Shown here piece by piece: positions 17,675 through 43,540 of a DNA stretch of 64,000 bases (position 1 is the first letter of the stretch; each line of letters starts with the position of its first letter). The notes under the pieces were generated by a model that was not told where the DNA came from, searched no databases, and worked only from the letters and a program-made list of their open reading frames with translations. This stretch comes from Nocardioides marmorisolisilvae (GTDB lineage Bacteria > Actinomycetota > Actinomycetes > Propionibacteriales > Nocardioidaceae). The stretch spans positions 3,658,001 through 3,722,000 of the forward strand of contig NZ_CP134227.1 of assembly GCF_031656915.1 (NCBI RefSeq), written 5' to 3'. Both the position numbers and the translations under genes were made by a program.

Positions 17675-17691
17675 AAAACGTCAGATGTTTT
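17675..17691. promoter_or_regulatory. Cargo regulon box (copy 1)
   Basis: AAAACGTCAGATGTTTT, near-perfect palindrome (5-bp outer arms perfect, centre TCAGA), 16 bp upstream of the acyl-CoA synthetase start. Same box as at 18598, 24528, 25385, 28401, 32250, 32785 and 43521. Confidence 0.75.
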
Positions 17692-17750
17692 GGATGGAGG
17701 CGTGACGGTGTCGTGGGTGACTCGGAAGTCGGCCACGCGTCGCCTGGGGA

Positions 17751-18533
17751 TCAGTACGGCGATGCGCCGCCGTCGACGTTGAGAGCGGTGCCGGTGATGC
17801 CACTGGCGGCATCGCTTGCGAGGAAGAGTGCGGCAGCGGCGACCTCGGCGGCCTCGATCGGCCGTTGGAGCGCCGATTCCTTGTAGTAGATGGCCGCGAG
17901 CGCGTCGAGGTCGGGAAGATTCATGGCTTGGATCGTGGCGGGGCCGACGTCGTAGAAGGCGTCGGTGAGGACGATGCCCGGGCAGAGGGCGTTAATGGTG
18001 ATGCCTTCGGTGCCGACTTCGCGAGCTGCTGACTTCACCAGGCCGAGAATGGCGTGCTTGTTTGCGACGTAGCCCGGAATCCCGGGCTTGCCCAGCTTCC
18101 CTTCCATCGATGACATGGCGATGATTCGCCCGCTCTTGCGGGGGAGCATGTGCTGGATCGACGCACGCATGCCCCAGAAGACGTGATTGAGGTTCCAGTC
18201 GAGCTCGAACTGCCATTCCTCGTCGGACATCTCTGCCACCGGTGCGGTCTTGTCGCAGCCGCCGGCGTTGAGAACGGCGATGTCAAGCCCGCCGAAGTGG
18301 TCGATCGCCGCGGCGATCAGGTGCTCCACGTCCTCGCGGCGGGTCGCGTCGCACGGCACGAAATGGGCCTGGGTGCCGGCGTCGAGCTCGCGCAGTGCCT
18401 GTTCGCCCTTCTCGGCCGACCGGCTACTGATGACGACGTACGCCCCTTCGGCCAGATAGGCCTCGGCGATGGCGCGTCCCAAGCTCCGCGTGCTCGCGGT
18501 GATGACCGCTACTTTTCCGTCGAGCGTAGGCAT
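17751..18533 (-). CDS. Short-chain dehydrogenase/reductase
   Basis: 260-aa classical SDR. The nucleotide motif is the variant ITASTRSLGRAIA (instead of TGxxxGxG), the structural motif LNAGG, catalytic Ser in MSSMEGKLG and YVANK for Tyr/Lys. It should oxidise a hydroxyacyl-CoA or alcohol, or run in reverse. The gene at 40929-41711 encodes a very close paralogue of identical length, with matching stretches throughout (for example ELDWNLNH, KESALQRPI, GIVLTDAFYD). It follows its own regulon box (18598-18613) and precedes the synthetase operon by about 90 bp. Confidence 0.88.
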   Translation of the reverse strand: MPTLDGKVAVITASTRSLGRAIAEAYLAEGAYVVISSRSAEKGEQALRELDAGTQAHFVPCDATRREDVEHLIAAAIDHFGGLDIAVLNAGGCDKTAPVAEMSDEEWQFELDWNLNHVFWGMRASIQHMLPRKSGRIIAMSSMEGKLGKPGIPGYVANKHAILGLVKSAAREVGTEGITINALCPGIVLTDAFYDVGPATIQAMNLPDLDALAAIYYKESALQRPIEAAEVAAAALFLASDAASGITGTALNVDGGASPY

Positions 18534-18597
18534 TCTTAGTCCTCCTGAGGTGGGTCCGCTTCCGAGGCAAGCGATGAGCCGTGCTGTGCGCCTGACT

Positions 18598-18613
18598 ATA
18601 AGTCAGATGTTTT
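18598..18613. promoter_or_regulatory. Cargo regulon box (copy 2)
   Basis: ATAAGTCAGATGTTTT, 65 bp upstream of the SDR start at 18533, in the gap between the SDR and the second acyl-CoA synthetase gene. It matches the consensus AWACRTCAGAYGTWTA in the core TCAGATGTTT. Confidence 0.7.
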
Positions 18614-18651
18614 CTCGCAGCAAGAGATCGCAGTCATTTTGGTGGCCTTGA

Positions 18652-20184
18652 TCATCCGTCCGCGCGCAACTGGGCGCGGAGCTGGAATTTCTGAATCTTG
18701 CCGGTTCCCGTCTTGGGCAGATCGCCAAACACGACCTCTTTCGGGGCCTTGAATCCGGGGAGTTGCTTGCGCGCCCAGGCGATAAGTTCGACGCTGGTGA
18801 GACTGGCCCCACTGCGGAGGGTGACGAAGGCAACCGGTACCTCGCCCCAGCGGTCATGCGGTGCGCCGACGACTGCACACTCAAGCACGTCGGGGTGGGT
18901 AGCAAGCGCCTGCTCGACTTCCACCGAGGCGATGTTCTCGCCGCCGGAGATGATCACGTCCTTCGCCCGATCGCGAAGTTCGATGTAGTTGTCAGGGTGC
19001 ATCACTCCGAGGTCGCCCGTTCGGAACCAGCCGCTACCGAACGCCTCCGCAGTGGCAACGGGATCGCGGTGATACCCCAAGGCGACCGTGTTGCCCGTCA
19101 GGACGATCTCACCCACGGAGACACCGTCCGCTGGCACGTCACGGCCGGCATCGTCGACGACGCGCACGGGCGCACCGGCGATGTTCGCGTTGCCTTGGCG
19201 TGCCTTGAACGAGGCCTGCTCGCTGAGCGGTGCCGCGGCACGTTCCGGTGGGAACTCGGACACGACGGAGGGCCCGAAGGTCTCGGTCAGACCGTAGTAG
19301 TGGCGCACGTCGAAGCCCAGGTCACCCAGTTGGCCCAGCAGTGTCGGGGAGGGTGGCGCTCCGCCGGTGCCGACGAGCACCCGATGGGGGACGCGGGCGG
19401 CGAGCGAACTCGCTGCGAGGTCGATGAGCACCGTTGGTGCTGCGTTAAGGCTGGTGACCCCCTCCTCCTGCACCGCGCGCCAGACAGCGTCTGGTCGCAC
19501 CTGCCGCAGGCATACGTGTCGTCCTCCGGCCGCAGTGACCGCCCAGGTGAAGCCCCATCCGTTGCAATGGAACATCGGAAGGGTCCACAGATGGACGGTG
19601 CTGGGGTCGAGCGCGGCGTGGTAGGCCATGGCAAGCGCCTGCTGGTGGGCGCCCCGATGGTGGTAGATGACCCCGCGCGGGCGGCCAGTGGTCCCTGACG
19701 TGTAGTTGAGGGCGAGGCTGGCGTATTCGTCCTCGACCGCGCGCTCGACCTCATCAGCGTCGATGAGCAGTTCCTCATACTCGACGTCCGAGATCTTGGC
19801 AGACGCAGGCAACCGGCTCGCGAGCGCCGCAAGCGAATGGTCATAGAGCAGGACGCTTGCCGACGCATGTTCGGTGATCCATGTGAGCTCGTCAGCGGTG
19901 AGTCGGATGTTCAGCGTCAACACTGTTGCGCCGGCTAGGGCGACGCCGAAATGTGCGTCGAGGAGCATGCGGCTGTTGGGGGCCAGCAGGGCTACGCAAT
20001 CGCCTGGTTTCACTCCCTGGGCAGCGAGGAGTCCTGCCATCCGGCGGACACGCGTCAGCCAAGCGGCATAGGTGATCCTGATGTCACCGTCGACGACAGC
20101 CACACGTTCGGGGAAGACGACGGCCGAGCGTCTGAGGAAGTTGACGGGGCTCAGCGGAAGGTCGGTCGGTGGCCGGGCGCTCAC
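18652..20184 (-). CDS. AMP-forming acyl-CoA synthetase
   Basis: 510-aa ANL ligase, second in the cluster. Motifs: LNYTSGTTGRPRGVIYHHRG, YYGLTETFGPSV, WFRTGDLGVMHPDNYIELR, DVIISGGENIASVEVE and the C-terminal Lys in PKTGTGKIQKFQLR. It resembles medium-chain or aryl acyl-CoA synthetases. The start is the GTG at 20184, 4 bp after the stop of the ACAD gene at 20189, since no ATG fits. It ends a minus-strand run 24479-18652 (hydratase, LLM oxidoreductase, two ACADs, ligase) with very short gaps, so all are probably cotranscribed from the box at 24528. Confidence 0.88.
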   Translation of the reverse strand: MSARPPTDLPLSPVNFLRRSAVVFPERVAVVDGDIRITYAAWLTRVRRMAGLLAAQGVKPGDCVALLAPNSRMLLDAHFGVALAGATVLTLNIRLTADELTWITEHASASVLLYDHSLAALASRLPASAKISDVEYEELLIDADEVERAVEDEYASLALNYTSGTTGRPRGVIYHHRGAHQQALAMAYHAALDPSTVHLWTLPMFHCNGWGFTWAVTAAGGRHVCLRQVRPDAVWRAVQEEGVTSLNAAPTVLIDLAASSLAARVPHRVLVGTGGAPPSPTLLGQLGDLGFDVRHYYGLTETFGPSVVSEFPPERAAAPLSEQASFKARQGNANIAGAPVRVVDDAGRDVPADGVSVGEIVLTGNTVALGYHRDPVATAEAFGSGWFRTGDLGVMHPDNYIELRDRAKDVIISGGENIASVEVEQALATHPDVLECAVVGAPHDRWGEVPVAFVTLRSGASLTSVELIAWARKQLPGFKAPKEVVFGDLPKTGTGKIQKFQLRAQLRADG

Positions 20185-20188
20185 GGGG

Positions 20189-21340
20189 TCAGCCGCGCAA
20201 TTGCAGCGAGCGTCCGATGACCTCACGCATGATCTCGTTGGAACCGGCCCAGATCTTGGTGACGCGGGCGTCCTGCCACGCGCGGGCCACGGCGCTCTCC
20301 TGCATGTACCCGTAGCCTCCGTGCATTTGCACGCATGCATCGACGACCTCGTTCTGGAGATCGGATGTCTTCAGTTTCGCCTTCGCGGCGTCGATCGGTG
20401 TGAGCTCGCCGCGCACATGGGCGTCCACACACGCGTCGACGTACGACTGGGCGATGTCGACCTCGGTCACGAGGTCGGCCATGCGGAAGCGGATGTGCTG
20501 GAGGGACCCGATGCTGGCGCCGAAGGCCTGTCGAGTGGAGACGTAGTCACGAGTCATCTCGAGCACGTGCTGAGCGTGCGTGATGTTGCAGACCGCAGAG
20601 GCGAGGCGCTCTTGAGCGAGGTGCTCCATCATGTAGCCGAAACCCTCGCCGCGGACACCGATAAGGTTGTCAGCTGGGACACGGACTTCGTCGAAGAAGA
20701 GCTCCGCAGTGTCGCCCTGGTGCTGACCGACCTTGTGCAGCAGCTTGCCGCGGTGGAGGCCGGGCGAGTTGCCGTCGACGGCGATCAGCGAGATGCCATC
20801 CCTTCCCGTGGTCGGCTCGGTCCGCACCGCCGTCACGATGAGGTCGGCCGAGGCGCCGTTCGTGATGAAGATCTTCGAGCCGTTGACGACCCATTGATCG
20901 CCATCGAGGGTCGCGCGTGTCTGGAGCCCCGCCAGATCCGATCCTCCTGCGGGTTCGGACATGCCGACCGCGGTCACGATGTCACCCGAACAGAAGCCCG
21001 GGAGCCATCGTTGCCGCTGCTCTTCAGTGGTTCGCTTCGTGAGGTACTGCGAGACCACATGGGTGTGGATCCCCAGGGCGCAGGCGTATGCCAGGCCGGC
21101 GCGGGTCAACTCCTCGTCCATGACGGCGTTGAACCTGTAGTCATCGACGCCCATGCCGCCGTACTCCTCAGCGACGCACAGGCCGAGCAGGCCGAGTGCG
21201 CCGGCCGCCCGCCAGAGCTCGCGATCCAATCTTCCCTCGTGCGCGAACCGCTCGTCATGGGGTTCGATCGCGTTCCGGACGAAGGCACGCACGCTCGTCC
21301 GGAAGTCTTCGTGATCGGTGTCGTAGATGCTTCGCAACAC
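20189..21340 (-). CDS. Acyl-CoA dehydrogenase, LCAD-like
   Basis: 383-aa ACAD of normal length. FAD/substrate signature VGMSEPAGGSDLAGLQT, then VVNGSKIFITNGASAD, and QMHGGYGYMQE. The C-terminal segment is WAGSNEIMREVIGRSL, so the Glu of the common YEGT motif is absent. That pattern occurs in LCAD and isovaleryl-type enzymes, where the base sits on helix G (here probably the Glu in LEMTRDYV). A true alpha,beta-dehydrogenase is expected. It is 9 bp downstream of a second ACAD gene and 4 bp upstream of the acyl-CoA synthetase. Confidence 0.87.
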   Translation of the reverse strand: MLRSIYDTDHEDFRTSVRAFVRNAIEPHDERFAHEGRLDRELWRAAGALGLLGLCVAEEYGGMGVDDYRFNAVMDEELTRAGLAYACALGIHTHVVSQYLTKRTTEEQRQRWLPGFCSGDIVTAVGMSEPAGGSDLAGLQTRATLDGDQWVVNGSKIFITNGASADLIVTAVRTEPTTGRDGISLIAVDGNSPGLHRGKLLHKVGQHQGDTAELFFDEVRVPADNLIGVRGEGFGYMMEHLAQERLASAVCNITHAQHVLEMTRDYVSTRQAFGASIGSLQHIRFRMADLVTEVDIAQSYVDACVDAHVRGELTPIDAAKAKLKTSDLQNEVVDACVQMHGGYGYMQESAVARAWQDARVTKIWAGSNEIMREVIGRSLQLRG

Positions 21341-21349
21341 GCTCGTCTC

Positions 21350-22666
21350 CTAGTACTGGTCGGGGGCCGCGAGAGCAGCGGGATCGTCGAGATAGGCCGC
21401 GAAGCGTTCAGCCGCCTGGCGGCGCCGCGTGGGCAGGTGCTCGCTGGGAATGTCATGTCGCTCGTATCCGCGGAGGATTCGGCGCGCGACCGTTGCACGA
21501 TGTACCTCGTCGGGGCCGTCGTAGATGCGCGCGTTGCGCGCCTCCTTGTACATGTCCTCGAGCGGCAGATCGGTCGTGATGCCCAGCGAGCCGTGCGCCT
21601 GGATGGCGCGGTCGATGACGTTGTAGAGCACCTGGGCCCCGTAGAACTTGATCAGCGAGATCTCCGTCAGTGCGGCCTTCACGCCCTGTGTGTCCATCTT
21701 CCAGGCCGCATGGAGGGTCATCAGCCGGGCTGCCGAGATCTCTGCAGCCGAGTCGGCCACCCAGTTCTGCACGGTCTGCTTGTCGGCGAGGAGCGAGCCG
21801 TGGGTGTAGCGGGACACTGCGCGCTCACAGAGCATGTCGAGTGCCCGGCGCGACTGGCCGAGCCACCGCATGCAGTGATGAATGCGGCCCGGTCCCAGGC
21901 GCTTCTGGGCAAGGAGGAAACCTGCGCCCCGGGCGCCGACCAGATGTCCTGCCGGCACGCGGACGTCGCGGTACCGGACCTCGGAGTGGTTGCCGATCCG
22001 TCCCGGCTCGGGGTGTGGGTGCTGCATGGTCCCGATGTCGCGGATGATCTCGACTCCTGGCGTGTCCCGAGGGACGACGATGATCGATGCCCGCCCGTGG
22101 GGAGCAGCGTCGGGATCCGTCACGGCCATGACGATGAGGATGTCTGCGGCAGAGCCGTTGGAGGTGAACCACTTGTGTCCATTGATCACCCACTCGTCCC
22201 CGTCACGGACCGCGGTCGTCGAGAGGAGCGTCGGATCGGCGCCGGCGCCGGGTTCGGTCATCGAGAAGGCGCTGCGAATCCCTCCGGCGAGGAGTGGTTC
22301 GAGCCATGCCTCGCGTTGCCATTCCGAATCGGGGGCCTCCTCGATTCCCAGCGCCAGCAGCTCCGAATTGCCGGAGTCGGGCGCATTGTTGCCGAAGACG
22401 ACGGGTGCGAGTGACGACATGCCGATGATCTCGTGCAGCAGGCCGAGACTGACCTGTCCGAATCCCATGCCACCCAGAGCGGCGGGAAGGTGCGCGGCCC
22501 ACAGGCCCTGGCGCTTGACTTCTGCCTGCAGGGGACGAATTGCCGCAGCCAGTTGTGTCTGAGGTAGTTCGAGTGATTCCAGCAGGAAGACCTCGCTGCG
22601 GACGAAGTTCTCTGCCCATGCCAGCTTCTCGGCATACTCGGGTTCTGTGGAGAAATCCCAGGCCAT
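21350..22666 (-). CDS. ACAD10/11-like acyl-CoA dehydrogenase
   Basis: 438-aa ACAD family protein. It contains FSMTEPGAGADPTLL and HKWFTSNGSAAD, and ends with the variant segment YDGPDEVHRATVARRILRG in place of YEGTSEI, as in the ACAD at 6782-8017. The DGPD type is linked in known systems to APH kinases and 4-phosphoacyl-CoA chemistry; two APH genes lie in this regulon (27343, 31209). A tail of about 35 residues after the ACAD fold is extra. It is cotranscribed between the LLM oxidoreductase and the LCAD-like gene. Confidence 0.85.
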   Translation of the reverse strand: MAWDFSTEPEYAEKLAWAENFVRSEVFLLESLELPQTQLAAAIRPLQAEVKRQGLWAAHLPAALGGMGFGQVSLGLLHEIIGMSSLAPVVFGNNAPDSGNSELLALGIEEAPDSEWQREAWLEPLLAGGIRSAFSMTEPGAGADPTLLSTTAVRDGDEWVINGHKWFTSNGSAADILIVMAVTDPDAAPHGRASIIVVPRDTPGVEIIRDIGTMQHPHPEPGRIGNHSEVRYRDVRVPAGHLVGARGAGFLLAQKRLGPGRIHHCMRWLGQSRRALDMLCERAVSRYTHGSLLADKQTVQNWVADSAAEISAARLMTLHAAWKMDTQGVKAALTEISLIKFYGAQVLYNVIDRAIQAHGSLGITTDLPLEDMYKEARNARIYDGPDEVHRATVARRILRGYERHDIPSEHLPTRRRQAAERFAAYLDDPAALAAPDQY

Positions 22667-22683
22667 GTCGATGTCCTCTCGTT

Positions 22684-23541
22684 TCAGGCGTCGGGGCGGA
22701 TGGCGAGGCGTTCGGCGAGTTCCTCGAGGCGGTCGACCGCCTCGCTGCCCTTCGCCCAGGGGCGTACGACGAGCCGGTCGATGCCGGCAGCTCCGTACGC
22801 TTCGACCATCGCGTCGGTGACGTCCCCGGTGATGTGGGCGCTGAATTCGAAAGCGTCGTCGCGCGCCAGTTCTGCCCTCTTGCCGCGGATGAACGCCGTT
22901 GCCTCACCGACCGTCTCGGGTGACATGCCCGTTGCCAGCCAGCCCTGGCCGCGAGTCGCCGCGCGGATGAGCGCCTTGGGTCCGTGGCCACCGAAGATGT
23001 ACGGCGGATGCGGTGATGTGGTCGGCTTCGGCTCCATTGCCACAGGGGGCACCTCGAGCAGGTCGCCCCGGTAGGTCGTCACCCGCTCGGTGAAGAGGAG
23101 ATCCATCACGTCGAGCGTCTCGTCGAGGAGGCGACCACGCCGGTTGAAGGGCTTGCCCATGATCTCGAACTCCTCACGCAACCAGCCCGAGCCGATGCCG
23201 AAGCGGAAGCGCCCGTCGGAGTACTGGTCCATCGTCATGACGGAACGGGCCAGCCGGAACGGATCGTGGAGGGGGACGATCGAGATCGACACGACGAGCT
23301 CGAGAGTGCTCGTGCGTGCTGCGAGGAAGCCCAGCGCGGCGTATGGGTCGAAGAAGGGGAGAAAGCCGTGGAAGGCCTGGTGTGCGTCATCCTCCGCATA
23401 CGGGAAGTGCGAGTCCTGGTGGACGGGCGTGACGACGTGTTCGCCCATCCACACCGAGTCATAGCCGAGCCGCTCACAGGCGGTGGCTACGTCGACGGTC
23501 TGGTGGGCCCGTAGCGGGAACAGCGAAACGCCGAACTTCAC
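22684..23541 (-). CDS. F420-type LLM-class oxidoreductase
   Basis: 285-aa luciferase-like TIM-barrel protein beginning MKFGVSLFPLRAHQTVDVA. Typical family stretches are YDSVWMGEHVV, FRFGIGSGWLREEF and PPYIFGGHGPKALIRAAT. It matches the Rv2161c/TIGR03619 type of actinobacterial F420-dependent enzymes, though FMN use cannot be excluded. It could oxidise or reduce a pathway ketone, alcohol or aldehyde. The ATG overlaps the stop of the enoyl-CoA hydratase gene by 4 bp, so translation is coupled. Confidence 0.83.
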   Translation of the reverse strand: MKFGVSLFPLRAHQTVDVATACERLGYDSVWMGEHVVTPVHQDSHFPYAEDDAHQAFHGFLPFFDPYAALGFLAARTSTLELVVSISIVPLHDPFRLARSVMTMDQYSDGRFRFGIGSGWLREEFEIMGKPFNRRGRLLDETLDVMDLLFTERVTTYRGDLLEVPPVAMEPKPTTSPHPPYIFGGHGPKALIRAATRGQGWLATGMSPETVGEATAFIRGKRAELARDDAFEFSAHITGDVTDAMVEAYGAAGIDRLVVRPWAKGSEAVDRLEELAERLAIRPDA

Positions 23542-24479
23542 GAGGCATTCCCCGAGGTCGAAGCACCGGGAAGCCCGTCGCGTGTGCGCCGCCGAACCGG
23601 TTCAGCCGACGACCACTCAGGCACGCCGAATTCAGGGGTGCCGAGGTGGGTCTCACCTCGGGTGACCTCGGCCCAATGCGAGTGGCTGACCTGATGCAGG
23701 GAGAAGCAGGCATTGAGTGCGTTGTAGAAGCCCATCTGGTCGACCGTCTGGTTGACGGACTCCTTGATGAGCAGCGAAGCGACGGTCGGAAGCTTCGCGA
23801 TCCGGCGGGCGAGTTCGAGGGTCCTGCTCTCGAGTTCGTCGTCGGGGAAGATCCGGCTGACCATGCCCCACTCGTGGGCCTCTTCGGCACCTACTGAGTC
23901 ACCGAGCAGGAGGAGTTCCTTGGCACGTCGGGGACCGAACTCCCACGGGTGCGCGAAGTACTCGAGGCCGCACATTCCAAGCCTTGTGCCGACGACGTCC
24001 GCGAAGGTGGTCGAGGGCGTTGCCACGATGAGGTCGCAGGCCCAGGCCAGCATGAGCCCGGCGGAGAAGACCGGCCCCTGTGTCTGGGCGATCGTGATCT
24101 TGCGCAGGTCACGCCAGCGGCGCGTGTTCTGGAAGTAGTAGTGCCACTCCTGCAGCATCCGCTGTTCGGTACCGAGCCGGGAGCCACCGTTCAGGTCGTA
24201 GCTGGGGTGGCCCTCGGGAGCACCGGAGCGCTCTCGTACGTCGTCCGCGGATCCAAGGTCATGGCCGGAGGAGAAGACGGGCCCATTCCCGCCGAGAATG
24301 ACCACTCGGACGCGATCGTCACGCTCTGCCCGGACGAGGGCGTCGTCGAGCTCGACGAGCAGTCCGCGGCTCTGCGCATTTCGCTGGCGCGGCCGGTTCA
24401 GCATGATGCGAACGATCCCGCCGTCGTCGATCTCGTCGTAGGTCAGGTAGGAGAACGGATCCTCCGTCGTTGTGGTCAT
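23538..24479 (-). CDS. Enoyl-CoA hydratase/isomerase family protein
   Basis: 313-aa crotonase-fold protein, longer than the usual 260 aa because of a C-terminal tail. It has MLNRPRQRNAQS, the oxyanion-hole region GGNGPVFSSGHDLG and a second region GPVFSAGLMLAWACDLIVA. The Glu positions of ordinary hydratases are not obvious, so isomerase, hydrolase or lyase activity is possible. The ATG at 24479 is chosen; an ATG at 24533 lies inside the regulatory box. It is the first gene of a long minus-strand operon and is divergent from the SDR at 24604. Confidence 0.83.
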   Translation of the reverse strand: MTTTTEDPFSYLTYDEIDDGGIVRIMLNRPRQRNAQSRGLLVELDDALVRAERDDRVRVVILGGNGPVFSSGHDLGSADDVRERSGAPEGHPSYDLNGGSRLGTEQRMLQEWHYYFQNTRRWRDLRKITIAQTQGPVFSAGLMLAWACDLIVATPSTTFADVVGTRLGMCGLEYFAHPWEFGPRRAKELLLLGDSVGAEEAHEWGMVSRIFPDDELESRTLELARRIAKLPTVASLLIKESVNQTVDQMGFYNALNACFSLHQVSHSHWAEVTRGETHLGTPEFGVPEWSSAEPVRRRTRDGLPGASTSGNAS

Positions 24480-24527
24480 CGTGTTGTCCTCGGTTGGGAG
24501 CGAAGCAGCGAAAAGAGCGATGGTGCA

Positions 24528-24542
24528 ATACATCAGATGTAT
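24528..24542. promoter_or_regulatory. Cargo regulon box (copy 3)
   Basis: ATACATCAGATGTAT, a perfect palindrome around its central base, between the divergent hydratase (24479) and SDR (24604) genes. It is the most symmetric copy and probably closest to the ideal binding site. TATAGT at 24540-24545 could be a plus-strand -10 box overlapping it. Confidence 0.8.
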
Positions 24543-24603
24543 AGTACAAATGTAGTCCGGTGGCTAGGGGTCGTCGGATCGAAGGTCGGAGGAGGTGGCT
24601 TTG

Positions 24604-25374
24604 ATGGCCGAAGTGCGAATCGATCCCGGCGGGTTGTTCTCGCTCGCGGGAAAGACCGTCCTGGTCACGGGCGGCAGCCGTGGTCTCGGCCGGGAGATGT
24701 GCCTGGGGTTCGCGGCAGCCGGCGCAGATGTCGTCGTGAGCAGTCGGGATCTGGGCGCGTGTGAAATGGTCGCCGCAGAGGTCGAGGCGTTGGGGCGCAG
24801 GGCCGTGCCCGTTGCCTGCCATGTAGGCAGGTGGGACGAGTTGACGAACCTGGCCGATGCTGCGATGAAGGCATCGGGCCGCGTTGACGTGCTGGTGAAT
24901 AACGCCGGCATGTCGCCGGTCTACGGCTCGGTGGCAGAGATCGGCGAGGACCTGTGGGACAAGACGGTCAATGTCAACATGCGTGCCGCGTTTCGCCTCA
25001 CCGCACTGCTGGCGCCGAAGATGGTGGCTGCGGGCGGCGGAGCGGTTGTCAACGTGAGCAGCATCGGGGCCGTCCGGCCCACGCGCGATATCGTTCCCTA
25101 TGCGGCCGCAAAGGCCGGTCTAAACGCCATGACGGCGGCGCTCGCCAAGGAGTACAGCCCATCGGTGCGCGTAAACGCGATCATGCCCGGCGCGTTCGCG
25201 ACCGACGTGGCGGAGTACTGGTCGGACGAGGCCGTTGAGCGGGTGTGTGGCATGACTGCGCTGGGCCGTGTCGGCAGGCCTAAGGAGATCGTGGGGACGG
25301 CGCTGTATCTGGCCAGCGATGCGTCGAGTTTCACCAATGGCGCGGTCATTGCCGTCGACGGGGGCCGCGACTGA
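24604..25374 (+). CDS. Short-chain dehydrogenase/reductase
   Basis: 256-aa classical SDR. Cofactor motif VLVTGGSRGLGREM, structural motif NNAGMS, catalytic Ser in NVSSIGAV and YAAAK. The C-terminus SSFTNGAVIAVDGGRD is typical. GGAGGAGG at 24588-24595 is 8 nt before the ATG at 24604, which rules out the GTG at 24595. A deleted relative lies at 11125-11555. It is transcribed away from the hydratase operon and shares the box at 24528. Substrate unknown; a 3-hydroxyacyl-CoA or alcohol is likely from context. Confidence 0.88.
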   Translation: MAEVRIDPGGLFSLAGKTVLVTGGSRGLGREMCLGFAAAGADVVVSSRDLGACEMVAAEVEALGRRAVPVACHVGRWDELTNLADAAMKASGRVDVLVNNAGMSPVYGSVAEIGEDLWDKTVNVNMRAAFRLTALLAPKMVAAGGGAVVNVSSIGAVRPTRDIVPYAAAKAGLNAMTAALAKEYSPSVRVNAIMPGAFATDVAEYWSDEAVERVCGMTALGRVGRPKEIVGTALYLASDASSFTNGAVIAVDGGRD

Positions 25375-25384
25375 GTGCGCTGTG

Positions 25385-25400
25385 ATACCTCAGACGTGTA
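25385..25400. promoter_or_regulatory. Cargo regulon box (copy 4)
   Basis: ATACCTCAGACGTGTA, upstream of the GntR-family gene and just after the SDR stop. It suggests the cluster's regulator is itself under the same control (autoregulation if GntR is the binder). Confidence 0.65.
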
Positions 25401-28350: not shown

Positions 28351-28400
28351 CTCCACCACTTCTCCGGCGTGACGTGAGGACTTGAAGCGATGACGTTACT

Positions 28401-32735: not shown

Positions 32736-32784
32736 CCGCGCACTTCCTCCTGGTTGGGAATGGCTGCTTGTTGCTGATGATGCT

Positions 32785-35893: not shown

Positions 35894-37365
35894 GCCATCG
35901 CCCACTGGACGTGCTGAGCCTCGGAGAACTCCTCGATTCCCCAGACGCCGTACTCACGGCCAACTCCGCTCTGCTTCATGCCACCGAACGGGGCGTCGGG
36001 CCGGAAGCCTCCGCCGTTGACCTGCACACTGCCGACCCGCAGCTGCGCGGCCACCTTCAGGCCCGCTTCCAGGTCGGTGGTGAACACCTTCGCGTGGAGA
36101 CCGTACGGTGTGTCATTCGCCGTCGTCACGGCGTCGGCGATGTCGTCGTAGGGGAGGAGGACGCCCACCGGACCGAAGAGTTCCTGCCGCGACACCGGCG
36201 CCTGATTGTCCACGCCGCCGAGGAGGTACGCGGGCATGAACCAGCCGTCCAGGTCGGGCACGGACCCCTTGCCGATGACCGTCGCGCCTGATTCGAGCGC
36301 AGCATCGACCCTGGCTTGCACGTGGTCACGATGTTCGGGGCGGATCAAGGGACCGATCGCCGTTGAGGGCGCCCAGGGATCGCCTGCGGGAAGGGCTTCG
36401 ATGAACCGACGCGCACGCTCGGCGAACTCGTCCCACCGTGAGCGTGGAACAAGTATGCGTGTGGTGGCGCCACAGCTCTGGCCGGAGTTGGCGAGGTAGC
36501 CCATCAGGATAGAGGGCACCTGCGACTCGAGGTCCGCGTCAGGAAGGACGACAGCCGGTGACTTGTCCCCCAGTTCCAGCGAGATCGACTTTGCCGTCTC
36601 GGCCGCCTGGCGCATGATGTGTGCGCCGACTGCCATCGAACCGGTGAAGGCGACCTTGTCCACACCTGGATGTGTGGTGAGGCGCTGCCCGACGTCGGGA
36701 CCGCCGACGACGATGTTCACAACGCCGGGAGGAAGTTCCGAGAAGACCTCTGCCAGCAGCAGTGTCGTGAGTGGTGCGCGTGGGCTGGGCAGGAGGACTC
36801 CGGTGCAGCCGGCGGCGAGCGCCGCTCCCATGCCCCGCATGGCAAGGAGAATCGGGAAGTTGTATGCGGTGATGACGGCGGCAACGCCGACGGGGCGACG
36901 CGCGACCAGGCTGACGCTGGTCGTCGGTACGAAGTGAGGTCCGAGGTGGACGGTGCCGTCCTCGGCGGCCCGGTCGGCGTACTCACGCAGTGTCTGCACG
37001 GCGAGGTCGGTCTGCAGGGTGTCGGCCAGGGCCACAGGAGTCCCGACTTCGAGGATCACGCCTGCGGACAGGGTGGCCTGCAAGGTCTCGAGCTTGTCCG
37101 CAACGCGATGGAGTGCCAGCGAGCGCTCACGCGGGGACATCCGCGGCCACGGACCTTCGTCGAAGGCGCGACGAGCGGCATCGATCGCGGCGTCGACCTG
37201 GGACAGGTCAGCAGTTGCGAATGTGGTCAGGGTCTTTGTGGTCGTCGGGTCGGGAATTGTGAGTTCCGGACCATTGCCTGCGACGCTCTTGTCGCCCACC
37301 AACAGATCCAGGTTCCACGCGGGCGCGCGTTCGTCGACGCCTGCGGATGAGGGTAGTGATGTCAT
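35890..37365 (-). CDS. Aldehyde dehydrogenase
   Basis: 491-aa NAD(P)-dependent ALDH. The active-site Asn lies in ITAYNFP, the cofactor region in VDKVAFTGSMAVG, catalytic Glu in SLELGDKSP and nucleophilic Cys in NSGQSCGATTRI. The C-terminal PFGGMKQSGVGREYG is typical. It would convert the aldehyde made by the GMC enzyme to the acid that the CoA-transferase or ligases activate. The ATG at 37365 overlaps the MaoC stop by 4 bp. Confidence 0.9.
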   Translation of the reverse strand: MTSLPSSAGVDERAPAWNLDLLVGDKSVAGNGPELTIPDPTTTKTLTTFATADLSQVDAAIDAARRAFDEGPWPRMSPRERSLALHRVADKLETLQATLSAGVILEVGTPVALADTLQTDLAVQTLREYADRAAEDGTVHLGPHFVPTTSVSLVARRPVGVAAVITAYNFPILLAMRGMGAALAAGCTGVLLPSPRAPLTTLLLAEVFSELPPGVVNIVVGGPDVGQRLTTHPGVDKVAFTGSMAVGAHIMRQAAETAKSISLELGDKSPAVVLPDADLESQVPSILMGYLANSGQSCGATTRILVPRSRWDEFAERARRFIEALPAGDPWAPSTAIGPLIRPEHRDHVQARVDAALESGATVIGKGSVPDLDGWFMPAYLLGGVDNQAPVSRQELFGPVGVLLPYDDIADAVTTANDTPYGLHAKVFTTDLEAGLKVAAQLRVGSVQVNGGGFRPDAPFGGMKQSGVGREYGVWGIEEFSEAQHVQWAMA

Positions 37366-37829
37366 GACGTAGTCTCCATTTCTGAAAGGGGCACCTCGAC
37401 GACGACCGTCCCCGGTCCTACCGTCACGCCGAGCGAGTTCCAGGCGGAGATCTCCAGGTGGACTACGCCGACGCCCTTCGTCGTCGTCTTGCTGAGGACC
37501 CGGCCGCCGACGTAGGTGGTGTCGCCGACGATGTTGAACTTCTTCATCCGGAAGCCTGAGATGGAACGGATCGTTGCCGTCATGCCCACGTATTCGCGAA
37601 CGGCGCGTTCCCACATCCCGAGCAACATGAAGGTGTTCGCGTACATCTCGGGCGCGCCGGACGCCTGTGCAGCCTCCGTGTTGTGGTGAATTGAATTGAA
37701 GTCCCGGGTCGAGCCGGCAGCCATCACGAGGCGATATACCGAGAGCGGGAACGCGACAGCGGGCACCTCGTCGCCGGGCTGCACATCGGCAAAGCGCAGC
37801 CTGGCGCCCTCACTGGTTTCGAGGCTCAT
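37362..37829 (-). CDS. MaoC-like hot-dog hydratase subunit
   Basis: 155-aa hot-dog-fold protein. The hydratase-2 motif is present as AGSTRDFNSIHHN (Asp and His of the catalytic pair). It is a single-domain half-hydratase and lies next to a second MaoC-like gene (37826-38404), an arrangement known from ChsH1-ChsH2-type heteromeric enoyl-CoA hydratases. It should hydrate an enoyl-CoA. ATGA overlaps link it to both neighbours. Confidence 0.85.
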   Translation of the reverse strand: MSLETSEGARLRFADVQPGDEVPAVAFPLSVYRLVMAAGSTRDFNSIHHNTEAAQASGAPEMYANTFMLLGMWERAVREYVGMTATIRSISGFRMKKFNIVGDTTYVGGRVLSKTTTKGVGVVHLEISAWNSLGVTVGPGTVVVEVPLSEMETTS

Positions 37830-38404
37830 CGGTCGATCTCCTCATCATGTGCGTTGTAGGCGTAGGTGCCGGTGCGCACCCGCGCCACGACATCGAGGTT
37901 CTCGTCCACCACATCGGACTCCCATTTGATGAAGGCGCCCTTGCCGACCGCCGTTTCCTTGGGGGTGCAACTCAGGAGCCTGCGCCCCCGCTGGGCGAGC
38001 CGGGAGCCGACGACCACCGGGCGTAGGAACTCGATCTCCAGATCGGTTCCGAAGAAGCCGTTGGTGGGTGGGGCCAACTCGAGCCCGACGTTGTTGATCG
38101 GGCTGTCCTCCGGTTGGGCATTGCGCTCGTGGCTGGTGAAGATGACCTGGCCGGGCTGGCGCATCGGTGGAAGAGTCCACATCAGCATCGAAGCGGCAGG
38201 CGCAATGATGTCGTCGTAGCCGTGGGCGCGCGCGGTCTCGCGGCTGGTGTGGAGCTTGCAGTCGAACTCGAGCGGCTCCAACCACCGACGAATCGTGCTC
38301 TGCTCGACAGGGTCACCGGCGAAGGTCGGCGCCCCCTCGTCGAAGTTTCTTCCAACGGCGGCGATCATCGGCTGCCAACCGGCTTGCCATCCCTCATCTG
38401 CCAT
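37826..38404 (-). CDS. MaoC N-terminal-domain (FAS1-like) dehydratase partner
   Basis: 192-aa hot-dog protein of the MaoC_dehydrat_N type (PAASMLMWTLPP, GTDLEIEFLRPVVVGSRL). It lacks the D-x-N-x-x-H motif, so the catalytic residues come from the partner encoded next. The start ATG at 38404 is chosen because AAGGAGAGG lies about 9 nt upstream; an in-frame ATG at 38428 overlaps the CoA-transferase stop and is possible. Confidence 0.82.
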   Translation of the reverse strand: MADEGWQAGWQPMIAAVGRNFDEGAPTFAGDPVEQSTIRRWLEPLEFDCKLHTSRETARAHGYDDIIAPAASMLMWTLPPMRQPGQVIFTSHERNAQPEDSPINNVGLELAPPTNGFFGTDLEIEFLRPVVVGSRLAQRGRRLLSCTPKETAVGKGAFIKWESDVVDENLDVVARVRTGTYAYNAHDEEIDR

Positions 38405-38424
38405 GTCGCACTTCCTCTCCTTGG

Positions 38425-40881
38425 TCATGTCAGGACACCTGTCCGTTCGAGCTCGGCGATCTCATCCGAGGTCAGGCCCAGGTTTTGGCGCAGGATTTCG
38501 TGGTTGTGCTCGCCGTAACGGGGTGCGGATCCACGCACGCGGGCAGGCGTGGCGGAGAGCGAGAATCGTGGGCCTTCGACTGTCACTGATCCGTGAAGGG
38601 GGTGGTCGACGGAGGTGAAATGGCCGCGTGCAGCGAGCTGGGCGTCATTCATCGCGTCGACTGCGGTCGATGCGACATGTGCGGGCACGCCCGATCGCTG
38701 GAAGAGGTTCTCGAGGTCCTGTGCGCGACGGCTCGCCGTCCAGGCGCTGATGGTCGCATCGATCTCGTCCTCACGCGCTCGACGCCCTGCCAGCGTCGAC
38801 AGCGCCGGATCCTCGGCCCAGTCCGTGCGACCGATCGCGCGGGCCAGGGTCTGCCATTCGGACGTCGTACGCACCGTCAACGCGAGATGGTCCGCGCATC
38901 CGTCGTCTGTCGCGCGACAGCGATAGACACCGTGGGGCGCGAAGGCGTCGTGACGATTGCCGTGCGGCCGGGCGACGTGGCCGGTCGCGAGATGGGCGGC
39001 TAGTTCGGGACCGAGGAAGTAGACACCTGCCTCGGCCTGGGCGACATCGAGATAGCAGCCGCGGCCCGTCGTGCGTCGGGCGCGCAGCGCGCCGAGCAGT
39101 GCAATCAGGGTCACCCTGGGCCCGAGGAAGTCCGTGTAGGGGCCGAACGGCCCGATTGGCAGTTCTCCGGGGACGCCGACCAGTTGCTGATAGCCGCTCA
39201 TTGCCGCGCCGATGTTGCCGAAGCCGGCGAGGCCGGACAGGCTTCCGCTCTGTCCCATCAGGGAGCTGCTGACCATGACCAGGTCCTCATGACCCTCGCG
39301 TAGCGAGTCGTAGTCAAGCCCCCATCGCGCCATCTGGCCAGGTGCGAAGGACTCGACCACGACATCAGCCCAGCGGGAGAGCCGACGGACCAGCTCCCGA
39401 CCCTCGGCCGTGGAGAGGTCGAGCGAGAGCCCCAGCTTTCCGGCGTTGCATGTCTCGTAGAGCGCAGAGTTCTCGACTCCTGGGGTGCCGCCTTGGAAGG
39501 GCGGCATCAATCGGGCGGTGTCGACCTTCTTCCGCGACTCGACCCGAATGACCGTTGCTCCGAGATCGGCGAGTGTACGCCCGACCACGGGGCCGGCGAC
39601 CACCCAGCTCAGGTCGAGCACCCGCAGGCCGTCCAGGGGACCGATCGTGTCGGTCCGACGGTGAGACTCGTGGTGTGCAGACGCGGGACAGGAGCCGGAC
39701 AGCCATTCCGAAAGGACCTCCGATGTGTGCTCTCCCAGCTCGGGTGCTGCTCGCCGGAAGGAATAGAGCTCACCACTTGCGCACGCGAACCGGCCGGGCA
39801 GCCGCTGGCGGCGGTCGCCGTCGCCGACCTCACACCAGAAGCCCCTTTCGGCCAACTGTGGGCTGGCGGCGAGATCGGCAACATCGGAGATGCCGACACA
39901 GAGCAGTCGACGCTCCATCGCGGCCGCGGTGACCTGCGCCTTGGTCTTCGTCTGAAAGAACTCGCCGACACGGTCGCGAACCTTCTCTAGGTCCGACTGT
40001 GTGATCTCGCCGCGTTCGAGCATGGCGGGAAGGACCAGCCAGTCCCAGTCCAGATGCTTGGGGAGGGGGGCGTCCGCCTCGGCCATCCACGTGAAGAACC
40101 GGTTGGTGAAGTGGCCCGCCGCGGCTCCCATGGCGAGATGGAACTCGATCAGTCCGTCGACGCACGGCCATTTCGAACGGCGGGTGCCGGTGCCGCTGCC
40201 GCTCTGGTCGATCTTGCCGTGAACCGCGTCTGGATCGGGGTTGTCATCACCCGCGTACGGAGCGAGGATGCGGCCGAGGGTGCAGATCGTCAGCGAGGCT
40301 TGTGCGCTGACTTCGACGCGCTGGCCAAGGCCGGTTCGCTCGGCGACGTCGAAGGCGGCCAGGGCGCCGCATGCGGCGTCGGCCCCGGCGTGCAGGAAGG
40401 CCTGGTCCGAGCTGATCCTCAGTGGCTGGTCGGAGTTGTCCCGGTTGAGGTCGAGCGCACCCCCGGCGGCCCAGACGATCAGATCAGTCGATGCATAGTC
40501 CGCCTTCGGGCCCGAAGAGCCGAATGGTGAGATCGCCACGTGAACCAGGCGTGGATTGACCGCGGACAACTCGGCAGGACCGAGCCCGAACGATGACAGC
40601 TGGTTGCCGGAGGACTCCACCACGATGTCAGCGACGGCGACGAGGTTGGCCAGGCGCTCACGTCCGTGCGTGCTCTCCAGGTCGAGCACCACGCTGCGCT
40701 TGTTCGCGGCGAGCGCCGCCCATGTAGATCCGGCGGGCCCCGGACCCAGATGGCGGGTTGGGGAGCCTTCAGCGGGTTCCACCACGACGACATCGGCGCC
40801 GAGGTCGGCGAGCATGCGGCCGGCAAGCAGCGCGCCACCCTCGCACAGGTCGAGTACTCGACATCCGTCCAGAGATCCCAT
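38425..40881 (-). CDS. Tandem-fused class III (CaiB/BaiF) CoA-transferase
   Basis: 818-aa protein with two CaiB/BaiF domains (about 1-395 and 415-818), each opening with the family motif (GCRVLDLCEGGALLAGR; GLRVLDLSWVVAGPVVGR) and LADLGA(D/T)V. The conserved catalytic Asp region seems intact in the C-terminal half (GPYTDFLGPRV) and lost in the N-terminal half (FLHAGADAAC), the same asymmetry as in the fusion at 11599-13968. It should transfer CoA to a pathway acid. GGGAGGGAACG precedes the ATG at 40881. It sits between an SDR and the MaoC pair. Confidence 0.86.
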   Translation of the reverse strand: MGSLDGCRVLDLCEGGALLAGRMLADLGADVVVVEPAEGSPTRHLGPGPAGSTWAALAANKRSVVLDLESTHGRERLANLVAVADIVVESSGNQLSSFGLGPAELSAVNPRLVHVAISPFGSSGPKADYASTDLIVWAAGGALDLNRDNSDQPLRISSDQAFLHAGADAACGALAAFDVAERTGLGQRVEVSAQASLTICTLGRILAPYAGDDNPDPDAVHGKIDQSGSGTGTRRSKWPCVDGLIEFHLAMGAAAGHFTNRFFTWMAEADAPLPKHLDWDWLVLPAMLERGEITQSDLEKVRDRVGEFFQTKTKAQVTAAAMERRLLCVGISDVADLAASPQLAERGFWCEVGDGDRRQRLPGRFACASGELYSFRRAAPELGEHTSEVLSEWLSGSCPASAHHESHRRTDTIGPLDGLRVLDLSWVVAGPVVGRTLADLGATVIRVESRKKVDTARLMPPFQGGTPGVENSALYETCNAGKLGLSLDLSTAEGRELVRRLSRWADVVVESFAPGQMARWGLDYDSLREGHEDLVMVSSSLMGQSGSLSGLAGFGNIGAAMSGYQQLVGVPGELPIGPFGPYTDFLGPRVTLIALLGALRARRTTGRGCYLDVAQAEAGVYFLGPELAAHLATGHVARPHGNRHDAFAPHGVYRCRATDDGCADHLALTVRTTSEWQTLARAIGRTDWAEDPALSTLAGRRAREDEIDATISAWTASRRAQDLENLFQRSGVPAHVASTAVDAMNDAQLAARGHFTSVDHPLHGSVTVEGPRFSLSATPARVRGSAPRYGEHNHEILRQNLGLTSDEIAELERTGVLT

Positions 40882-40928
40882 CGTTCCCTCCCTTCTGACA
40901 TGCGCCACGCTGGTATTGGGCGGATCGG

Positions 40929-41711
40929 TCAGTAGGGCGACGTTCCGCCGTCGACGTTCAGCGCTACGCCTGTAATCCCGCTGGCGCTGTCACCTGCTAT
41001 GAAGACCGCCGCTGCCGCCACCTCGTCCACGGTGATGGGGCGTTGCAGCGCAGACTCTTTGTAGAAGATGGCCGCCAGCGCGTCGAGGTCGGGCAGGCCC
41101 ATTGCTTCGATGGTGACGGGGCCGCCGTCATAGAAGGCATCGGTCAGCACGATGCCCGGGCAGATGGCGTTGACGGTGATTCCAGCCGTCCCTACTTCCC
41201 GGGCGGCGGACTTCACGAGTCCGAGGATCGCGTGCTTGTTGCTCGTGTACCCGGGGATCCCTGCCTTGCCCAGCTTGCCTTCGATGGACGACATGGCGAT
41301 GATGCGGCCCTTGCCCGCAGGAAGCATGTGTCGCATCGCGCGACGCATTCCCCAGAACGTGTGGTTGAGGTTCCAGTCGAGTTCGTACTGCCACTCGGCG
41401 TCGGAGATCTCCGCGACGGGAGCGGTCTGATCGCAGCCGCCAGCATTGAGTACGACGATGTCCAGCCCCCCGAAATGGGCGACAGTCTCATCGATCAGTC
41501 GCTCCACGTCCTCGCGCTTGGTCGCGTCTGCGGCGATGAAGTGCGCCCGATTGAGACCACCCAGCTCGGCGAGTGCCTGTTTGCCCTTGTCCTCCGACCT
41601 GCTGCTGATGACGACCTGCGCGCCCTCGCGGAGATATGCCGCCGCGATGCCGAGGCCGATGCTGCGTGTGCTCGCCGTGATCACGGCGACCTTGCCTTCG
41701 AGCGAACCCAT
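40929..41711 (-). CDS. Short-chain dehydrogenase/reductase (paralogue of the 17.7-kb gene)
   Basis: 260-aa classical SDR with the same variant motif VITASTRSIGLGIA, LNAGG, MSSIEGKLG and YTSNK. It is a close paralogue of the gene at 17751-18533 over its full length, and both adjoin CoA-activation genes. This suggests duplication of a whole sub-pathway. The ATG at 41711 follows an AGGGAGAAGACC ribosome binding site. Confidence 0.88.
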   Translation of the reverse strand: MGSLEGKVAVITASTRSIGLGIAAAYLREGAQVVISSRSEDKGKQALAELGGLNRAHFIAADATKREDVERLIDETVAHFGGLDIVVLNAGGCDQTAPVAEISDAEWQYELDWNLNHTFWGMRRAMRHMLPAGKGRIIAMSSIEGKLGKAGIPGYTSNKHAILGLVKSAAREVGTAGITVNAICPGIVLTDAFYDGGPVTIEAMGLPDLDALAAIFYKESALQRPITVDEVAAAAVFIAGDSASGITGVALNVDGGTSPY

Positions 41712-41731
41712 GGTCTTCTCTCCCTGACGAG

Positions 41732-42124
41732 TCATGCGAGCGTGAACACGGGCACGTGCTGACCATCGTTGAGTTCGCGAAAGGCGATACGCAATGCGGA
41801 CCCGGTCTTGACCTCGTCGGGATCGGCATCCTCGACCTCGGCCCACCACCAGGGACCCTCGTCGAGCTCGCCGATCGCTACCACGGAGCGCGGAGTGACG
41901 CCGTTTGCGTCCGGGCGACCGTGGACGAAGGTGAAGCTCACGACGGTCGCCCTCCCGCTTGCGGCGAACGGCAACATCGCCTCCGCCGGGGTGTGTTCGG
42001 TGCGTGTGTCCTGGGGACCGTAGACCCGGCCGGTGGATGGGTCGCGATGCAGCAGGAATTCGCCACGGCCGGCGAGATCAACGAACTCCTGCGTGGCCGG
42101 GTCGGCGCGGAATGTGATGGACAT
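41732..42124 (-). CDS. OB-fold (DUF35-like) thiolase partner lacking the zinc ribbon
   Basis: 130-aa protein aligned in layout with DUF35/ChsH2 C-terminal OB-folds (VVSFTFVHGRP, RSVVAIGELDEGPWWWAEV, KTGSALRIAF). The Cys residues of the usual N-terminal zinc ribbon are absent (region GRGEFLLHRDPSTGRVYGPQ). It lies 10 bp downstream of a thiolase-fold gene, as in known Ltp/OB-fold complexes, and is the second such pair in the window. Confidence 0.8.
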   Translation of the reverse strand: MSITFRADPATQEFVDLAGRGEFLLHRDPSTGRVYGPQDTRTEHTPAEAMLPFAASGRATVVSFTFVHGRPDANGVTPRSVVAIGELDEGPWWWAEVEDADPDEVKTGSALRIAFRELNDGQHVPVFTLA

Positions 42125-42134
42125 CGGCGTCTCC

Positions 42135-43322
42135 TCATGACGGATGGGTGCCTAGGACGAGAGTGGAGTGGTGATCGAGGACCCCGCCGTTGCCGCTGAC
42201 GAGGAGGAGTTCGTGATCGGCGACCTGCCGCTCGCCGGCCTGGCCACGAGCCTGGATGATGGCTTCGGAGAGAGGCGTCATGCCCCACATGTAGTACGAG
42301 GAAAGTTGACCGCCTCCGGTGTTCAACTTCAGCGATCCACCGGGACCCAGGGCGCCCGACTCGACGAAGGCACCCCCTTCACCCTTGGCGCAGAAGCCGT
42401 AGTCCTCGAGACTGATCAGGACCGTGTAGGTATAGCAGTCGTACAACTCCACAACGTCGATGTCGGACAGACTCACTCCTGCCATCGCCAGCGCGGCTGG
42501 ACCCGAGTCCACGGCGCCGCTCACCAAGCCGAACTCTTCGAAGCGTTCGAGGAAGTGCCCCGGGTGTGCCTGCCCCCAACCCAGGACATGCACCGGCGGC
42601 TGCTGCAGGTCCGCGGCGCGCTCAGGGCTCGTCACGATGACTGCGATACCGCCATTGGAGACCAGGCAACAGTCGAGGAGCCTGAAGGGCTCTGCGATCC
42701 AGCGTGAGGATCGGTGGTCGTCCAGGGTCATCGGGGTCCGTTGCTGGGCAAGAGGGTTGAGCGCGGCCCAGGCACGCTGCGCTACGGCAATGGCACCGAA
42801 CTGATCCGTGGTGGTCCCGTATCGTTCGATGTGGCGTCGTGCTGCCAGGGCATAGAGCGGGTTGGCGCCGAGCACACCAGCAGCGGCGAGCAGGCCCATC
42901 CAGCCGGAGGCGCTCCCGCCTGTGTAACTTGCCCCCGCCGACACCGACTCCCGCAGAGGAGCGTCGGCGAAGACGCAGGCGACGGCGTTGACGACGCCGG
43001 CCGCGACCGCCAATGAGGCAGTCTGGACCATCGCGCCTGCGGTAGCGCCGAAGGACTGCATCTCGGCGAGCACATGGAGATCCTTGAGGCCGAGCGATCG
43101 TTGCAGGTCGAGATGCACGTCGTCGCTGATGCCTCCCGACACCAGGAGACCATCGATCTCCGACAGAGCCAGTCCTGCGTCCACGGCAGCGAGGCGGACC
43201 GCCTCGTCGGCGAACTGCGTGGCGGTCCGACCGTAGACCTTGCCCATCTCGGTGATCCCGAGACCGGCGATCGCTGCGTGGGGGTGATACCGGGTGTGCA
43301 CCGAGGTGACGCCTCCGTCCAT
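42135..43322 (-). CDS. Thiolase-fold lipid-transfer-like protein (aldolase candidate)
   Basis: 395-aa thiolase-superfamily protein (AAIAGLGITEMGKVYGR; DCCLVSNGGIAVIVTS; ELYDCYTYTVLISLEDYGF). The canonical NTHGG His is replaced: NTGGGQLSSYYMWG. Loss of this thiolase residue together with an OB-fold partner gene suggests an Ltp2-like retro-aldolase rather than a thiolase. The ATG at 43322 is chosen; a GTG at 43361 would add 13 residues and include a hairpin (GTGTGG/CCACAC, 43346-43363). It is first in the minus-strand operon reaching 33570. Confidence 0.83.
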   Translation of the reverse strand: MDGGVTSVHTRYHPHAAIAGLGITEMGKVYGRTATQFADEAVRLAAVDAGLALSEIDGLLVSGGISDDVHLDLQRSLGLKDLHVLAEMQSFGATAGAMVQTASLAVAAGVVNAVACVFADAPLRESVSAGASYTGGSASGWMGLLAAAGVLGANPLYALAARRHIERYGTTTDQFGAIAVAQRAWAALNPLAQQRTPMTLDDHRSSRWIAEPFRLLDCCLVSNGGIAVIVTSPERAADLQQPPVHVLGWGQAHPGHFLERFEEFGLVSGAVDSGPAALAMAGVSLSDIDVVELYDCYTYTVLISLEDYGFCAKGEGGAFVESGALGPGGSLKLNTGGGQLSSYYMWGMTPLSEAIIQARGQAGERQVADHELLLVSGNGGVLDHHSTLVLGTHPS

Positions 43323-43456
43323 TTCGTCCGACTCAGATTTGTGGTGTGTGGGGCTTGCCACACGTGTCGCTTCGCGGTTGACTGTGGCACGCTAAGAATC
43401 AGACGGCTATAGAAAAAAACGGTCCGTAACTCAAAACTTTCGCTCTCTCGCCCGAA

Positions 43457-43467
43457 CAGTCAGACTG
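43457..43467. promoter_or_regulatory. Palindromic GTC-A-GAC site
   Basis: CAGTCAGACTG, perfect 11-bp palindrome with central A. It shares the GTCAGAC core of the regulon boxes but has different flanks. Likely an auxiliary operator in the divergent region. Confidence 0.55.
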
Positions 43468-43511
43468 ATGAAGTGAGGGGTTTACTACGGGGAAAGCAAG
43501 ATGATCGTCCC

Positions 43512-43540
43512 TTGACAGGGTAAACACCTGATGTTTTACT
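43512..43540 (+). promoter_or_regulatory. Promoter of the ABC transporter operon with regulon box (copy 8)
   Basis: TTGACA at 43512-43517, a 17-bp spacer and TTTACT at 43535-43540 form a near-consensus sigma-70-type promoter. The box TAAACACCTGATGTTTTA (43521-43538) fills the spacer and runs into the -10, so a bound protein would block RNA polymerase. The leader to the first gene is about 180 nt. Confidence 0.75.

Follow-up and report, generated by a model that had tools for sequence, protein, structure and literature searches.

The question raised by this stretch of Nocardioides marmorisolisilvae DNA, a 64,000-nucleotide window formed by bases 3658001-3722000 of a 4,228,226-bp single-contig genome, is which regulator reads a palindromic box that recurs in front of its catabolic genes. 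We found eight such boxes, which on comparative grounds are very probably the binding sites of the cluster's own GntR-family regulator, whose gene is the one right after the box at 25384. The boxes, their positions, their local enrichment and their co-occurrence with relatives of this GntR were computed directly from the sequences.

Sequence, frequency and placement of the boxes

All eight boxes listed in a preliminary description of this DNA were recovered, each within 1 bp, and they are palindromic as it had said; the even 16-bp unit that it proposed, however, gives way to an odd palindrome of 17 bp around ATACATCNGATGTAT, with a central base, a 15-bp core and 17 bp when the flanks are included. 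Self-complementarity ranges from 8 to 14 of 16 positions across the eight boxes, and their half-sites read ATC in 8/16 cases and GTC in 6/16, with one CTC and one ACC. When scanning the window, we observe seven sites with a match of at least 11/14 to ATACATCNGATGTAT, all of them at 17676-43522, the catabolic region of the window; 30 composition-matched first-order Markov sequences give an expectation of 0.3 such sites per 64 kb. The box at 32784 lies under this cut; a matrix derived from the seven others gives it 15.4 bits, which is at the floor of the null.

Upon extending the search to the whole genome, 16 places have at most three mismatches to the core, seven of them within this 26-kb stretch (binomial P = 3.5e-12), and the reversed pattern, used as a control in the same search, gives three places; genome-wide the box is concentrated here, random occurrence elsewhere being what the preliminary description had named as speaking against it. 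Among the nine places outside, four belong to a single repeated element whose copies are identical for at least 1.7 kb, and another four (L013-L016) each overlap one or more open frames longer than 300 codons, the remaining one being at 3958725. The repeat copies, at 1390011, 1395716, 1999533 and 4047786, carry ATACATCCGATCGAT and probably represent a mobile element unrelated to the regulon.

With regard to placement, seven of the eight boxes lie wholly outside called genes. The eighth, at 32784, lies inside a mechanically called open reading frame (ORF), and the most probable start of the SnoaL-like gene there is the ATG at 32735, which is preceded by AGGAGG; we read this box as intergenic because the probable starts are ATG 32735 on the minus strand and ATG 32800 or 32830 on the plus strand. 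The boxes at 24527, 28400, 32784 and 43521 occupy gaps between divergent genes, and those at 17675, 18597, 25384 and 32249 each precede a gene within a same-strand gap. Box centres are ~24 to ~200 bp before the start, the centre of box 1 being 24 bp upstream of ATG 17659. The intergenic or 5' location that had been described therefore holds, as does the breadth of coverage: with operon limits inferred throughout from strand and spacing, the boxes head nearly all operons from the ligase/dehydrogenase/CoA-transferase operon at 11599-17659 to the transporter operon ending at ~51415, with ~33 genes behind them (Table 1).

Additionally, several boxes touch promoter-like hexamers. Box 43521 starts 3 bases past a TTGACA (43512-43517), the edges of box 28400 overlap ACTATA and TATAGT, and box 18597, in a looser scan, covers the spacer of a minus-strand promoter-like pair, TTGCTG/TATAGT, and overlaps its TATAGT. 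A generic sigma-70 scan of 24400-43800 returned one pair, which spans box 32784, against 1.6 in shuffles, and a terminator scan of the same interval returned three matches against 7.2. Since boxes overlap or abut promoter-like hexamers, the arrangement suits repression by blocking of the polymerase.

Table 1. Boxes and the genes behind them, in window coordinates
Feature	Coordinates	Strand	Sequence	Context or content
Box 1	17675..17691		AAAACGTCAGATGTTTT	between SDR (stop 17751) and FadD-like ligase 16142-17659 (-)
Box 2	18597..18613		TATAAGTCAGATGTTTT	upstream of SDR 17751-18533 (-)
Box 3	24527..24543		AATACATCAGATGTATA	14/14 core match; between divergent ECH operon (-, start 24479) and SDR (+, start 24604)
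Box 4	25384..25400		GATACCTCAGACGTGTA	~100 bp upstream of gntR
Box 5	28400..28416		TATACATCTGACATTTA	between divergent lipid-transfer/thiolase gene (+) and APH-MDR operon (-)
Box 6	32249..32265		TATACATCTGATGTTTA	upstream of APH-SDR operon (-, start 32228)
Box 7 (weak)	32784..32800		TAGTAGTCTGACGTTTA	between SnoaL (-, probable start 32735) and histidine phosphatase (+, start 32800/32830)
Box 8	43521..43537		TAAACACCTGATGTTTT	between divergent thiolase operon (-) and ABC transporter operon (+)
Possible ninth, weak box	43393..43409		TAAGAATCAGACGGCTA	12.4 bits, E 0.8 per window
Operon behind box 1	11599..17659	-		FadD-like ligase, acyl-CoA dehydrogenase, CaiB/BaiF CoA-transferase
SDR behind box 2	17751..18533	-
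Operon behind box 3	18652..24479	-		enoyl-CoA hydratase, luciferase-like oxidoreductase, two acyl-CoA dehydrogenases, acyl-CoA synthetase
SDR behind box 3, opposite direction	24604..25374	+
GntR-family regulator, proposed box binder	25493..26263	+		C-terminal FCD domain
Genes behind box 5	26318..28326	-		APH-like kinase, curcumin-reductase-like MDR
Genes behind box 5	28432..29975	+		lipid-transfer/thiolase-like protein, small downstream ORF (no Pfam match)
Genes behind box 6	30421..32228	-		APH-like kinase, SDR
Gene behind box 7	32268..32735	-		SnoaL-like protein
Gene behind box 7	32800..33522	+		histidine phosphatase
Operon behind box 8	33570..43361	-		thiolase-like (start 43301 or 43361), SDR, CaiB/BaiF, two MaoC/dehydratase-like, aldehyde dehydrogenase, GMC oxidoreductase, isochorismatase
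Operon behind box 8	43728..51415	+		branched-chain-type ABC transporter, TetR (48488), enoyl-CoA hydratase, amidase

The GntR regulator and the box in the loci of its relatives

The regulator combines an N-terminal winged helix (PF00392, E 8.4e-19) with a C-terminal FCD domain (PF07729, E 4e-18). In 18 sequences the FCD pocket residues H175, H219 and H241 are invariant, and the conserved histidines are metal ligands in several FadR/FCD members; the recognition region SRST[VI]REALR hardly varies among relatives. These relatives are 35-46% identical and come mostly from Actinomycetes. In the family, 14 of 197 genomes, its own included, have a match at E <= 1e-30, none but itself above 43% identity, and in the class four of 394 have one at E <= 1e-45, namely itself and three of one genus at 44-46%. 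Within its own genome no second place matches at E <= 1e-30 (13 of 24 candidates scored), and the relatives from plasmid records all fall below 60% identity, the 20 listed of 791 reaching 34.4% at most. When named genomes were scanned at the protein level, the single GntR sequence found no relative, and an alignment of the window GntR with 17 relatives matched at least 279 loci.

Next, we searched for the box in two sets of loci, one comprising 20 kb around each of 20 relatives' gntR genes (~10 kb per side) and the other the best 80 of the 279 loci, calling a box at 15 bits or more with a matrix built from the window boxes alone. At least one box occurs in 13/20 loci of the smaller set and in 53/80 of the larger; it lies at most 400 bp from the gntR match in 10/20, and at most 400 bp from the ends of that match in 37/80, whereas 40 palindromically column-shuffled matrices scored against the 80-locus set averaged 0.35 such loci and never exceeded 1. 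The gntR-adjoining location of the relatives' sites is not a consequence of the choice of matrix. Because some loci share a genus or overlap between the two sets, the counts are not independent events. The 37 loci span 22 named genera and a few metagenome bins; the genera include Parafrankia, Amycolatopsis, Saccharopolyspora, Pseudonocardia, Actinomadura, Micromonospora, Streptomyces, Rhodococcoides and Nocardioides, as well as two from the Alphaproteobacteria, Roseibium and Roseovarius. We also observe box pairs ~25 or ~100-150 bp apart in six loci of Thermomonospora, Actinocorallia, Nonomuraea and Actinomadura (L077, L085, L086, L093, L095, L096), with up to eight boxes per 20 kb in some loci of these genera.

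Across the relatives' loci, 101 distinct sites reach 16 bits, with the consensus TAAAYRTCWGAYRTTTA; 84/101 are intergenic, against 16% expected, and 89/101 lie between -40 and 250 bp from a start. The first core position is G in 60% and A in 31%, and the next is T in 98%. From these sites we built a sequence-only model of 58 hand-picked ones, none from this genome. At E <= 10 the search of the whole genome, in which 150 of 220 first-look candidates were scored, returned five rows that correspond to three places (17675, 28400 and 32249), all in this cluster. With filters off, the same model applied to the window gave 14 rows that amount to seven of the eight boxes on both strands and nothing else, with E between 0.01 and 0.2 for five of them.

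We further examined which genes are boxed in the relatives. In the 80-locus set 76 genes start behind boxes, and upon removal of nine gntR genes the 67 remaining were scanned at E <= 1e-10, among which we count matches to models of MaoC/mesaconyl-CoA hydratases (16), CaiB CoA-transferases (six), MmgE/PrpD proteins (six), branched-chain-type binding proteins (six), major facilitator superfamily (MFS) transporters (six) and luciferase-like oxidoreductases (four). The families therefore indicate that this GntR branch often sits on CoA-thioester catabolic clusters. Differences in the helix-turn-helix, mainly at residues 61-63, 46 and 41, between the 53 loci with a box and the 27 without were considered as specificity residues and dropped, as they follow relatedness.

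Known operators, proposed mechanism and rival readings

The preliminary description knew of no named regulator with this exact site, but the core has known counterparts: GTCnGAC / ATCnGAT appears to be a variant of the known FadR-subfamily operator, NyGTM-N0-1-KACNy (PMC4494728). Spacing and palindromy are alike, and the relatives' boxes most often have G at the first core position, as in that operator, whereas the GTM core is matched in the window by the minority of half-sites that read GTC. LutR of Bacillus subtilis, a GntR-family dimeric repressor of catabolic genes for L-lactate utilisation, has the operator TCATCTGATGA (PMC11734750), also an odd palindrome, whose nine central bases CATCTGATG are identical to those of box 32249; the next outward bases are T and A in LutR and A and T in the window boxes. 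LutR is moreover a Firmicute protein whose targets are lutABC and lutP, no counterpart of which was recognised in the scanned genes of the cluster, so that membership of the LutR group (L-lactate genes, operator TCATCnGATGA) was rejected, on the outer bases as well. AlkR, which governs n-alkane degradation from the operator ATTGTCAGACAAT over the -10 region and is released by C16- and C18-CoA (PMC12042122), offers a model for acyl-CoA sensing here, whereas its core is GTCAGAC rather than mostly ATCnGAT, and it has other genes and belongs to another FCD group. The operators of AnsR of Corynebacterium glutamicum, ACCTGTCTGACAGCT (PMC9145765), and of the L-2-hydroxyglutarate regulator LhgR, TTGTCTGACAA (PMC8206213), have the same core as many of the relatives' boxes and differ in genes and inducers. 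The notion of an undescribed regulon fared better: searches of open-licence papers found neither the regulator branch nor its full box nor the regulon described, and the boxes behave as the sites of one regulator.

We consider it highly likely that the boxes are operators of the GntR encoded at 25493-26263, bound by a dimer at eight promoters including its own, with repression that an effector releases. A GntR dimer would place one winged helix on each half-site of the odd palindrome WAWAYRTCNGAYRTWTW, and where a box covers or abuts the -10/-35 region it would most probably block RNA polymerase; box 4, ahead of gntR, predicts autoregulation. Once uptake or breakdown of the substrate starts, a pathway acid or acyl-CoA would enter the FCD pocket and the effector-bound dimer would leave the DNA, upon which the transporter, ligases, dehydrogenases, hydratases, CoA-transferases and thiolases would come on together. 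The binding itself, the dimer, the sign of repression, the inducer and the substrate are the parts that we infer, the inducer being presumably an acid or acyl-CoA made from the cluster's substrate. The cluster is probably a self-regulated, repressor-controlled regulon of ~33 genes for CoA-dependent catabolism.

Several observations weigh against this assignment. Box 32784 is the weakest of the eight, boxes 25384 and 43521 each have one off-consensus half-site (CTC and ACC, respectively), and box 43521 is ~200 bp from the nearest transporter start. The relatives-only model misses box 43521 and gives E 0.4-0.8 to box 32784 and 4.3-5.7 to box 25384; E-values of so short a model are rough, its genome search covered the fraction of candidates given above, and it is not wholly independent because its sites were found with the window's matrix. 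The site is also not common to all relatives, since 27/80 loci, including a large Actinoplanes group, and 7/20 have no box of at least 15 bits, and the relative of highest identity (46%, L044/L064) is without one. Finally, the overlap with promoters rests on inspection by eye and an uncontrolled looser scan, since the generic scan did no better than shuffles.

That the boxes are an effect of chance or composition, as AT-rich intergenic DNA in a GC-rich genome could produce and as the simple A/T at their outer positions would allow, is extremely improbable: the seven sites far exceed the 0.3 expected and are concentrated in the cluster genome-wide, the model built from relatives recovers all boxes but one, and matrices of equal composition with shuffled columns show no such association with gntR. 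As for the binder, the preliminary description had proposed the GntR or the TetR at 48488. TetR, alone or as a second regulator, could be thought of since its gene belongs to the cluster and sits in the operon that follows box 43521, but a TetR relative at E <= 1e-20 (a strict cut, over ~10 kb per side) occurs in 0/100 gntR loci, 66 of which carry boxes, and the box appears to fit the FadR-subfamily operator form. Because boxes accompany GntR relatives in many genera and no TetR relative occurs in the 100 loci, GntR is the candidate, and we regard a role of TetR at the boxes as highly improbable. The genome encodes six FCD proteins, and the boxes might belong to a regulator encoded elsewhere, such as another FCD GntR, with the cluster controlled as a guest; this too is very unlikely, as the other five FCD loci (~3.4 kb each) hold no box, their best score being 7.3 bits, the GntR search of this genome gave no second match at E <= 1e-30 among the 13 of 24 candidates scored, and the box tracks the relatives of this GntR across genera.

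A different matter is the sign of control, since GntR might bind the boxes and mainly activate, or act both ways depending on position. E. coli FadR is described as both activator and repressor (PMC6608401), and box centres from ~24 to ~200 bp before starts would permit it, but boxes 18597, 28400, 32784 and 43521 overlap or abut promoter-like hexamers, and AnsR (PMC9145765), LutR (PMC11734750), HypR (PMC6608401) and AlkR (PMC12042122) are all repressors; we therefore hold activation to be unlikely without being far-fetched, and repression by GntR to be the preferred mode.

Scope of the proposed regulon, its genes and neighbours

The assignment gives a 17-bp operator a regulator by comparative genomics, marks out as one regulon ~33 genes for an uncharacterised pathway of CoA-dependent degradation and makes the box a searchable motif for similar clusters in actinobacteria, with the general picture of bacterial catabolic repressors unchanged. 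A broader proposal, which we advance tentatively and to which we give slightly less than an even chance, is that this GntR represents an undescribed, widespread, mainly actinobacterial FCD branch, most members having an RG[VT]xGG wing and the operator TAAAYRTCWGAYRTTTA, whose members would serve as specific switches for numerous uncharacterised CoA-thioester catabolic clusters (MaoC/mesaconyl-CoA-hydratase-like, CaiB, MmgE/PrpD, acyl-CoA dehydrogenases), and that here an entire degradation island, perhaps a mobile one, would answer to a single acyl-CoA-type signal through one regulator and eight operators. If true, the box could be used to find such pathways and their boundaries.

We searched for syntenic clusters through the luciferase-like protein, which has one 48% relative (G291) besides itself among 394 genomes; the 60 kb around that relative contain related CoA genes, but gntR relatives (at E 1e-15) and boxes reaching 15 bits are both absent there, the best site scoring 14.2. 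In plasmid records no similar cluster was found, with a best cover of 12% among the matches listed.

Three APH-family kinases lie near acyl-CoA dehydrogenases in the catabolic region, at 8031-9125, 27343-28326 and 31209-32228, the latter two being boxed. They bring hydroxyacyl-CoA kinases to mind, and together with the acyl-CoA dehydrogenases they resemble the 4-hydroxyacyl-CoA phosphorylation route of levulinate catabolism, which we take as a lead only. In the divergent region beside box 8, a small palindrome, ACGGTCCGT, at 43419-43427 could be a candidate TetR site. To the left of the catabolic genes, at 1320-5976, we observe an EccE-like match over the Pfam cut-off, with TrbL and AAA_10 matches below it, and these proteins hint at conjugation machinery and a possible integrated conjugative element. 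Just to the right of the cluster, at 51814-53358, a protein with a Mu-transpos_C_2 match is encoded, which is presumably an IS21-type transposase.

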